Origin: Paludibacteraceae bacterium | GTDB lineage: Bacteria > Bacteroidota > Bacteroidia > Bacteroidales > Paludibacteraceae | Direction of reading: 5' to 3' | Length of the DNA: 42,828 bases | NCBI GenBank assembly: GCA_017628395.1 | Contig: JAGBZD010000097.1 | Coordinates: 1 to 42,828 of the forward strand | In this document: one piece after another, positions 7,977-9,511 of the stretch | Layout: every line of letters starts with the position of its first letter | Numbering within the stretch: the first letter of the stretch is position 1 | Notes under the pieces: generated by a model | Told to the model about the DNA's origin: nothing | Seen by the model: the letters and a program-made list of their open reading frames with translations, nothing else | Database searches by the model: none | Program-made: the position numbers and the translations under genes

Positions 7977-8221
7977 TTTCATCTTTCCCGTCTCATATCT
8001 TTCGAAACCACTCGATTACCACTCTGATTTTCGCGGTAGCCCCGTTATGCACCCCTTTTCTAAATACTCCTACCATCTTCCCGCAGTTCTACCCGTTAGC
8101 ATTCCGTTACCATTCCGTTACTATCCTATACTCTCCTAATAGTTTGCCAGAAGGTTGTTTACCCCAAATCAATGTGATAAACAAAATTTGATACGGTTGT
8201 TTTGATTTTTTTATTATTTTT
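7977..8221. repeat. gene-free spacer with 11-bp repeats
   Basis: No credible coding sequence. At 8090..8133 there are four 11-bp units: TACCCGTTAGC, ATTCCGTTACC, ATTCCGTTACT, ATCCTATACTC. Read on the minus strand the core is TAACGGAATGG, close to the TAACGAATAAC units at 28970..29013. Confidence 0.7.
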
Positions 8222-8253
8222 CTTGCATTATTCAAAGAAATGTTGTAATTTTG
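8222..8253 (+). promoter_or_regulatory. promoter of the 8.26-8.64 kb RNA
   Basis: -33 CTTG (8222..8225), 20-bp spacer, -7 TAATTTTG (8246..8253). The start is expected at about 8257-8261. No protein-coding gene begins within the next 400 bp on this strand. Confidence 0.8.
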
Positions 8254-8257
8254 CACC

Positions 8258-8644
8258 CGAAAGCTCAACGCCGGGGTTTAGAGGGAGGGAAGTGTCCCCT
8301 CTCGGAAAGCCAAATTGTTTGACTAAACACCCCAGTCACGGCTTTCAAGACATATTAAAAAGGCGTTTATTAGCGCTCTGTTCTGACGAATCGAAATGTC
8401 GCAAGTTTCGGAAAAAGAATCAGGACTTAGCAACGATAGATGTCCTACGGGATATAGATTATCCCTCTTGTGCCTATTTGGTACGCCTTTTGCATATATG
8501 CGTATGCGCACACGCGTACCTTAACTATGTAGCACGAGAGTATATTTATATTCGGCGTGGGCTTCGCGTTGTCGGTTCTATTCTTTAGGCAATGCGACAG
8601 CCTCGATTCGTGGAACTGGCAAGAGCAAGTTTCACGCTTTTTTG
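8258..8644 (+). ncRNA. structured RNA of about 385 nt, family not recognised
   Basis: Bounded by a good promoter and a terminator, and rich in stems. 5' domain: a possible H-type pseudoknot, GGGG-TTTAG (8273..8281) with CTAAA..CCCC (8323..8333, 2-nt bulge), interlocked with GAAAGCC/GGCTTTC (8305..8311 with 8340..8346), and a small AGAGGG/CCCTCT hairpin between. Further 3': CGAAA/TTTCG, GGGATA/TATCCC, a perfect GGTACGC/GCGTACC stem around a purine-pyrimidine loop, and GTTGTCG/CGACAGC. The sequence lacks the signatures I know for RNase P RNA (GAGGAAAGUCC), tmRNA (tRNA-like ends, tag frame) and SRP RNA. A 128-codon frame across it starts upstream of the predicted start and has no protein-like features. 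It may be a trans-acting RNA or a long leader for the downstream secreted-protein genes. Confidence 0.6.
8609..8643 (+). terminator. terminator of the structured RNA
   Basis: 9-bp stem CGTGGAACT/AGTTTCACG (8609..8617 with 8628..8636, one G-U), 10-nt loop, C and then six T. Confidence 0.85.
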
Positions 8645-8719
8645 TTGTGTCTAATTGGTTCAGAAAACTCATTAAAGATGAGGCTAATGTTAATATTAAC
8701 TAATTAAAACAACAAAACA

Positions 8720-9511
8720 ATGAAAAAAATCATTATGGTGGTGCTATCTGTAGCACTTTGCGCATCTTGCGCAGCAAAGAAGCCTGTACGCGTTTCACAA
8801 CCTGTACAACAACCTGTTCAACAACAAATTGATCCTCAACAAGCAAAACTAGACAGTCTCCGTCGCGCTCAAGAGATTCGTCGTATTGAATTGCAAATGC
8901 AAGCAGAGGAAGCACAAATGCAAGCAGATCTTGAAATTGCAAAACTCAAGGCAGACAATGCAAAACGCGCAACATCGAAGCGTGTAGGACAAGATCTTTA
9001 CACTCCTTGTATTGATGAGAGTTATGATAAACCAGGTGAGTACATGGCAGCATTGGGTATTGCAGAAGGCGAAATAGAACGTGGTCCTGCTCAAATCAAT
9101 GCAAACCGTTATGCTGTTGCCAATATTGCATCACGCTATATTGGTATAATTAAAAATGGTGTTACACAATATGCAAAAAATGTAAATACTCGCTCTGGCG
9201 CTAAGGTAAAAGAGAACGAATTAGAAGGCGAAGCACAAGCTATCGGAGAAAAAGCAATTGATAAATATGCAGAGGTTGTTTGCACCAAATTTGAGCAAGA
9301 CGATATGGGTACTTACACATGCTATGTAGCAGTACATGTTCCTTTGAAAGATGTTCTCAATGAAACCATTGATGAGTTGGGTGTTCTTCAAACCGATTAC
9401 GATCGTCAACAATTCCGCAATTGGATGGAAGCTGAGTTAAATAAACAAGCTGCTGCTAAAGAAGCGGAGAAAAAAGAACTTCAAGATTTGCGTCAACAAT
9501 TAGGTGAATAA
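8720..9511 (+). CDS. LPP20-like lipoprotein
   Basis: The 263-residue protein has a signal peptide with a lipid-attachment cysteine likely at C17 (ALCASC; the -3 residue is unusual). A Gln/Pro-rich stretch and a coiled-coil of Lys/Glu/Gln/Ala (residues 40-95) follow. A globular domain (about 95-220) contains PCIDESYDKPGEYMAALGIAEG and a Tyr/Val-rich strand AEVVCTKFEQDDMGTYTCYVAVHVPL, resembling LPP20/LpoB-type lipoproteins. A second charged helix ends the chain. It is probably anchored to an envelope membrane facing the periplasm. Its TAA stop overlaps the ATG of the next gene (TAATG), so translation is coupled. The function is unknown. Confidence 0.75.
   Translation: MKKIIMVVLSVALCASCAAKKPVRVSQPVQQPVQQQIDPQQAKLDSLRRAQEIRRIELQMQAEEAQMQADLEIAKLKADNAKRATSKRVGQDLYTPCIDESYDKPGEYMAALGIAEGEIERGPAQINANRYAVANIASRYIGIIKNGVTQYAKNVNTRSGAKVKENELEGEAQAIGEKAIDKYAEVVCTKFEQDDMGTYTCYVAVHVPLKDVLNETIDELGVLQTDYDRQQFRNWMEAELNKQAAAKEAEKKELQDLRQQLGE

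Follow-up and report, generated by a model that had tools for sequence, protein, structure and literature searches.

A 42,828-nucleotide stretch of DNA from a Paludibacteraceae bacterium (contig JAGBZD010000097.1; hereafter the window) carries on its forward strand an RNA element that is probably a cis-acting, attenuator-like 5′ leader of riboswitch scale. It belongs to a multi-copy RNA family of the Bacteroidota that has no entry in Rfam 15. The conserved part of the element spans 8348..8642 and corresponds to positions 1–259 of covariance model R1, which scored it at 231.1 bits with the window copy itself among the training sequences. A Bacteroidota-type promoter was read from the sequence at 8222..8253 (−33 CTTG at 8222–8225, N20, −7 TAATTTTG at 8246–8253), and a terminator-like hairpin with U-tract was predicted at 8609..8643 (hairpin 8609–8636, T 8638–8643), its fold consisting of a 9-bp stem (8609–8617 with 8628–8636) and two inner pairs at −13.3 kcal/mol. 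Both the promoter CTTG-N20-TAATTTTG and the 9-bp hairpin before six T had been proposed in a preliminary description, together with an undescribed structured RNA in a stretch free of credible genes, and we agree on each of these points. Its extent had to be revised: the RNA is present, but its conserved part begins only at 8348. Between promoter and conserved part lies a variable 5′ hairpin of the leader, P0 (8259..8346), which in the predicted fold closes directly 5′ of ACATA. This nested hairpin places 8340–8346 on 8259–8265 and replaces the 5′ pseudoknot suggested earlier, in which 8305–8311 was paired with 8340–8346. A P0-type hairpin closing before ACATA was predicted in 50 of the 76 same-genus copies used (out of 88), with 21.9 expected from shuffles. 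The downstream gene (8720..9511) is an ORF for a 263-aa secreted lipoprotein, as predicted by an N-terminal heuristic; a Pfam scan of this protein gave no match at E ≤ 0.01.

A known Rfam family would have spoken against a new RNA, and none was found. The window was scanned against Rfam 15 (4227 families) at curated cutoffs, with no match on the element; in a permissive scan of 8100–8800 the best E was 2.5, with everything far below cutoff, and scans of 40 further loci (2 × 20) likewise gave no match on the element. RNase P, tmRNA and SRP, already held not to fit in the preliminary description, were ruled out on this basis, as was 6S RNA. The sections of the literature covered, among them parts of PMC8040213 and PMC2864571, contained no description of the RNA family, and fragments of the element may sit among the 3161 candidates of PMC8040213. 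Known RNAs were observed beside two elements: a group II intron domain (RF00029, 65.6 bits) at L146:222-297, near a short-class element, and a SAM-II riboswitch (RF01726, 52.8 bits) at L163:2050-2109, on the same locus as an element.

The window RNA was predicted to fold at −141.2 kcal/mol, compared with a mean of −106.2 kcal/mol for shuffled sequences (z −6.35; none of 100 shuffles as good). The minimum-energy structure, one long single-sequence rod, was rejected as the true topology, since the comparative pairs disagree with it; the comparative data support instead two local hairpins (a/a′, e/e′), joined by predicted long-range helices. In alignment A3, comprising 88 distinct same-genus copies, 96.6% of the cells of all 53 pairs were paired (shuffled 80.7%), and all five measures lay above every shuffle. 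Hairpin A (8380..8426) is closed by stem a (8380–8386 with a′ 8420–8426; 7 pairs, 97.1% paired, every pair changed on both sides) and holds the hypervariable tag b (8387..8393), the kissing loop c (8397..8403) in a small hairpin C1, and the hypervariable tag d (8415..8419). Hairpin E (8569..8622) is closed by stem e (8569–8578 with e′ 8613–8622; 10 pairs, 99.0% paired, 7 with two-sided changes) and holds the respective partners in the order d′ (8581..8585), c′ (8593..8599, in hairpin C2) and b′ (8604..8610). Helix f, whose 5′ side is strand 1 (8439..8445), also covaries in A3. The small hairpin P2 (8362..8377; 8362–8365 with 8374–8377) was paired in 99.1% of cells with no pair changed on both sides, hence without covariation support. 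A helix P1, formed by AAAA near 8357 with the terminal U-tract, was tried and discarded as not cognate-specific (p 0.93 and 0.65; third group 0.013).

The pairing between the two hairpins was assessed independently of the search model: R1, built from 26 copies, contained no helices other than P2, a, C1, f, e and C2; helices b, c and d were excluded, so that their pairing was not built in. In A3, b/b′ was paired in 99.2% of cells with two-sided change at all 7 pairs, c/c′ in 99.7% with two-sided change in 5 of 7 pairs, and d/d′ in 76.7% on the alignment. The covariation score of b, c and d together was 0.830, compared with 0.207 ± 0.010 for shuffled alignments (0/500) and at most 0.142 for slid partners; two of the five measures (pairs changed both sides, pair types) do not exceed shuffles for these helices, because their columns hold nearly every letter. 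In alignment A7, in which c was fixed by the search pattern, helix d aligned poorly (43–74% paired at four positions, 35% at one), and an alignment-free test was therefore used. Cognate duplexes were stronger than non-cognate ones in 70/70 (b) and 84/84 (d) distinct tag pairs of the genus set and in 66/66 (b) and 74/74 (d) of the set from named genomes, with duplex energies of about −7 to −10 kcal/mol for the own partner and about −1 to −2 kcal/mol for partners of other copies. Null controls in which b was combined with d′, or d with b′, gave nothing. Because b, c and d covary and the pairing of b and d is cognate-specific, hairpins A (8380–8426) and E (8569–8622), 142 nt apart, are predicted to recognise each other. 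Substitutions in relatives compensate within the comparatively supported stems and do not break them; together with the wide conservation and the empty Rfam 15 comparison, they bear out the undescribed structured RNA proposed at the outset.

A further set of pairings involves strand 1, strand 2 (8555..8565), which is common to strands 1 and 3, and strand 3 (8632–8637), directly before the U-tract. Besides the long class, to which the window element belongs, a short class of about 160–195 nt was found, in which strand 2 reads GCGUGGG and may take as partner either the upstream strand 1 or strand 3. In the short-class alignment A6, helix 1:2 was paired in 95.3% of cells, compared with 89.1% after shuffling, and helix 2:3 in 95.5%, compared with 91.1%. 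Four pairs of each helix show changes on both sides; a single column common to the two helices contributes most of the two-sided change (for 1:2, 17 of 21 cells; for 2:3, 10 of 16). A6 contained 48 of the 55 short elements, leaving out L157, L143, L198, L205, one L217 copy, L224 and L225, and superseded an earlier, cruder picking of strand 1 in 52 of the 55, which had given 40/52 for 1:2 and 44/52 for 2:3. Six model hits had been removed before the duplex comparison and the survey of downstream genes: L162 minus, L150 minus, L169 plus and L174 plus (weak or antisense), L188 (atypical) and L199 (contig end). Duplex energies were calculated for 154 of 180 elements (26 had no strand-2 pattern; for 1:2, 37 of the 40 short ones were used). 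Cognate exceeded non-cognate duplexes in three groups in 76/83, 27/31 and 31/37 cases for 1:2 and in 70/83, 30/31 and 37/40 cases for 2:3, the windows of the latter including part of stem e. Helices 1:2 and 2:3 cannot coexist, because both use strand 2, and in the short class they are predicted to be mutually exclusive, each being conserved. For the long class the signal is weaker: the strand 2 overlap of f and P3 comprises only two bases, the supporting triple change comes mostly from one clade, and P3 in A3 shows one pair changed on both sides (a value reached by 464/500 shuffles) and 13 changed cells (shuffled 2.3). The competing pairings are thus clear in the short class and partial in the long class, including the window element.

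A U-tract (at least 5 T in 7 nt) was present at the end of 246/253 copies and in 27/252 controls, the models themselves ending on the U-tract and thereby favouring its detection. A local terminator hairpin was found in 151/197 long and 9/59 short elements; the short elements appear to close through helix 2:3 instead. In many copies, e.g. L036, L041 and L214, the sequence between U-tract and ATG contains another conserved stretch, GGGGCGTTTGGAGCC or GGGACT..GGCAAA. The stretch after the U-tract is perhaps complementary to strand 3, for which the signal was weak (p 0.012, 0.31, 0.045); within the genus, the pairing energy was no stronger than with an upstream control.

The position of the element relative to promoter and gene was constant. 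A same-strand ATG ORF lay within 300 nt of the U-tract in 227/256 elements, with a median gap of 65 nt. Promoters were counted as sequence motifs in the 223 of 256 elements having such a gene and enough upstream sequence: a −7 box occurred within 160 nt upstream in 193/223 (about 20 expected from shuffles) and both boxes in 146/223, and the gap between U-tract and gene contained a −7 box in 10/223 (about 8 expected from the same shuffles scaled to gap length). With a promoter upstream of the element and the gap at chance level for promoters, transcription of the gene probably passes through the element, which in most copies is thus placed as a 5′ leader between promoter and gene. The choice between a cis and a trans role, left open in the preliminary description, now leans towards cis for the same reason.

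The downstream products were signal-peptide-like, by a crude heuristic, in 53/80 cases in the genus, 48/97 for other long copies and 37/50 for short copies (background 237/620), so that the enrichment for long copies outside the genus is modest (48/97 compared with 38%). Pfam was run on 20 downstream proteins (17 from the own genome, 3 from a relative), 7 of which had no match at E ≤ 0.01. Above the curated cutoffs were BspA leucine-rich repeats, DUF4988 with collagen-like and Listeria-Bacteroides repeats, VWA, a type IX secretion tail, MORN, and a helicase with DUF559; others among the 20, including a sigma-factor region, stayed below cutoff. Since some of the downstream genes are not secreted (helicase, HTH, the sub-threshold sigma-factor match), no theme pointing to a ligand emerged, and no common pathway was seen among the genes compared. 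Elements L205, L224, L165, L174 and L228, from different genomes, stand before small HTH-like proteins of one look (MRNIHIGQIIHKKF...) as judged by eye, possibly a regulator group.

Copies are numerous. In the own genome (2.4 Mb), 33 matches were obtained with covariance model R3, built mainly from the short class (E ≤ 0.001), 26 with R1, and 17 by BLAST of part of the region; the RNA, treated before as a single locus, is real, but it recurs many times in its genome. BLAST of the whole region gave matches in relatives too. R1 matched 36 of 37 same-genus genomes (own genome included), 6 of 24 other genomes of the order and, in a wider sample of the order, at least 58/247 genomes and at least 42/165 genera; the figure of 58/247 is a lower bound, given the strict filters and the few candidates scored. 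R3, applied to 345 genomes of the phylum, matched 38; the majority belong to other families within the class, and five lie outside it. Distant copies inspected by eye had the same parts. The conservation in relatives on which the preliminary description depended thus extends from genus to order and phylum. That the RNA belongs to a multi-copy family, with mutually exclusive helices and hypervariable matching tags, is invisible from one sequence.

A pattern scan of named genomes yielded at least 114 stretches; among the 80 loci listed, R1 confirmed 78, a few of them partial or weak (e.g. L305, L252), and did not confirm two (Billgrantia, Saccharibacteria). Hosts among the loci listed were mostly Paludibacteraceae, Muribaculaceae, Prevotella and other Bacteroidales MAGs, and included the named strains Paraprevotella xylaniphila YIT 11841, with 10 matches in its genome, and Prevotella sp. 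P5-50. Four confirmed loci came from MAG records labelled Clostridium, Firmicutes, Erysipelotrichaceae and Lachnospiraceae (L231, L254, L291, L294), labels likely due to misbinning. The element of L282 (JAFUVS010000002.1, a roe-deer rumen Paludibacteraceae MAG) was identical to the copy on the same-genus contig G016:C19. BLAST of the window element against plasmid and phage collections gave no match in either, and a plasmid or phage origin was dropped. Seven exact pattern matches occurred in a collection of viral contigs, three of which (L344, L346, L347) were confirmed by R3 and four not; the three have an ORF behind the element, and the contigs may be host DNA or prophage.

The tags vary far more than the structure that carries them. 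Among 24 own-genome pairs at least 90% identical elsewhere, identity was 0.30 for b and 0.38 for d, compared with 0.94–0.98 for stems and core; 22 own-genome copies compared had 20 different b, and six type-B copies, 0.92 identical in the apical region, were 0.31 identical in b. With a chance identity of 0.385 for b from column composition, near-identical own-genome copies share b no better than chance, yet b matches its own partner. L040 and L065, own-genome copies before homologous genes, differ at 8/12 sites of b + b′, at 6/182 sites in the rest of the element and at 4/34 fourfold-degenerate sites of the genes; other pairs vary, e.g. L040–L106 with 4/12 for b and 11/33 fourfold sites. Where the downstream proteins of two same-genus copies are homologous (65 pairs, in some cases only over short segments), b is the same in 2 pairs and d in 1. 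In tests of tag identity whose statistics ignore the tree of these related sequences, kissing-loop identity within genomes was below permutation (0.582 compared with 0.625 ± 0.019, 0/500), b was not significantly low (47/500) and d not at all (385/500). For pairs at least 85% identical elsewhere, b identity was 0.384 within genomes (85 pairs) and 0.457 between genomes (305 pairs; p 0.005).

Diversification need not be instant. L217:442-616 and 1567-1741 are tandem copies with identical b, c and d, each before a similar gene and apparently a young duplication, and the apparent orthologues L175/L177 share b by eye; both cases would argue against immediate divergence of tags. Another tandem, L198:461-697 and 903-1090, has the same tag b in both elements, the first with a hairpin E that looks altered by eye. 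Swapping of whole leaders between loci could explain the differing tags of gene duplicates; it does not explain the diversity of b and d in the leader pool itself. Reverse complements of b, c and d were no commoner in the sequence flanking their own element on either side than in the flanks of other copies, and a role of the tags as antisense to the own mRNA was rejected on this null result. The best reading of the tags is that they direct the pairing of each leader to itself and away from other leaders of the cell, which suggests that mispairing in trans carries, or once carried, a genuine cost, or that trans pairing with the own kind is the function. A design in which each RNA copy has a private matching tag pair fits no RNA family known to us. 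As a tentative and more doubtful extension, the private complementary tags might form a code that limits each leader to recognising itself or transcripts from the same locus; some 20–30 leaders per cell might then, on the same slender footing, be kept distinct by diversifying selection or a dedicated mechanism.

The simplest account is a cis leader with attenuator logic. Transcription would start at the promoter, and the nascent RNA would fold hairpin A (b, C1, d) and then hairpin E (d′, C2, b′), the two recognising each other through helices b, c and d. With strand 2 on strand 1, the 3′ end would be free and the polymerase would read into the gene; with strand 2 on strand 3, a hairpin would be closed around E directly before the U-tract and lead to termination. 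From this arrangement we infer that termination occurs and is regulated, and that docking of A and E would set the balance, perhaps stabilised by a small molecule or protein. The docked form is, by a slight preference, taken to be the terminated one; the polarity could be the reverse, because the local terminator hairpin of many long-class copies competes with docking.

Other explanations were weighed against the cis leader. The own promoter, the strong terminator-like end and hypervariable 5–7-nt tags resembling variable seeds would also suit stand-alone small RNAs that end at the U-tract and act in trans, the gene being reached only via leaky read-through. This is unlikely, given the same-strand gene at a narrow distance in 227/256 elements behind a gap not enriched in promoters, tags that pair with their own partner, and reverse complements of b, c and d that are not enriched in the own flanking regions relative to those of other copies. 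A mobile or repeated DNA element (miniature transposon, REP-like palindrome or recombination site) landing behind promoters, its palindromic look being a feature of the DNA, would account for many near-identical copies per genome with unrelated genes behind them and for ends (AAAAAGCGT...ACGCTTTTT) resembling inverted repeats. We consider it very improbable: the pseudoknotted helices with some G-U pairs, the kissing loops and the unpaired residues that are conserved fit a folded single strand, the two ends themselves show little or no covariation (P1 p 0.93, 0.013, 0.65), the order promoter, element, gene is constant, and the window element lacks a BLAST match among plasmids and phages.

Pairing could also take place between molecules. 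Covariation is blind to the difference between cis and homotypic trans pairing, so hairpin A might dock with the E of another transcript from the same locus, the tags serving as identity codes; this is improbable in our estimation, as is the outcome it would have, namely homotypic dimers or oligomers, or feedback of the terminated leader on its own locus. It would fit tags that differ between near-identical copies of one genome and a within-genome kissing-loop identity below permutation (0/500), and geometric reasoning suggests that one molecule could hardly form a/a′, e/e′, b, c and d all together; ornate bacterial RNAs are reported to form homo-oligomers (PMC12286853). The permutation effect, however, is not significant for b (47/500) and absent for d (385/500), with relatedness not modelled, intramolecular docking should be kinetically favoured, and the two tandem L217 copies carry the same tags.

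As a cis leader, the element resembles trp-type attenuators (Bacteroid-trp, RF01692) in lying before a gene and in its competing hairpins and terminator-like hairpin with U-tract. It differs from them in its large pseudoknotted docking domain and its dozens of copies per genome, and no leader peptide with regulatory codons was noticed at the element in an unsystematic inspection; Bacteroid-trp itself gave only a sub-threshold match (24 bits, cutoff 49) at 8691–8788, 3′ of the element. Some riboswitches, such as those for cobalamin and c-di-GMP, have kissing loops or many copies per genome. The element is like them in size, conserved unpaired residues, loop–loop contact, leader position, number of copies and surface proteins among the genes, and unlike them in having no Rfam match and in carrying locus-specific hypervariable tags, to our knowledge no riboswitch trait. 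With the ornate large bacterial RNAs GOLLD, ROOL and OLE (PMC12286853) the element shares elaborate structure, long-range loop contacts and possible self-assembly; it is smaller than they are, is a gene leader and has no Rfam match to them. In phi29 pRNA, complementary loops pair between molecules and can vary if the partner varies too. The element likewise varies its loop sequence together with a complementary partner, whereas it may pair in cis or trans and has dozens of codes in one cell.

If the leader reading is right, the standard RNA library lacks a class of structured RNA that is apparently common in a major phylum of gut and rumen, and many accessory, mostly secreted or surface genes would be under shared RNA-level control. 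The private tag pairs raise the question of why a cell keeps dozens of near-identical RNAs distinguishable; should the code for self-recognition be true, it would mean locus-specific feedback or co-assembly of mRNAs for surface-protein genes throughout the phylum. The 10 matches in the named strain Paraprevotella xylaniphila YIT 11841 make the reading testable.
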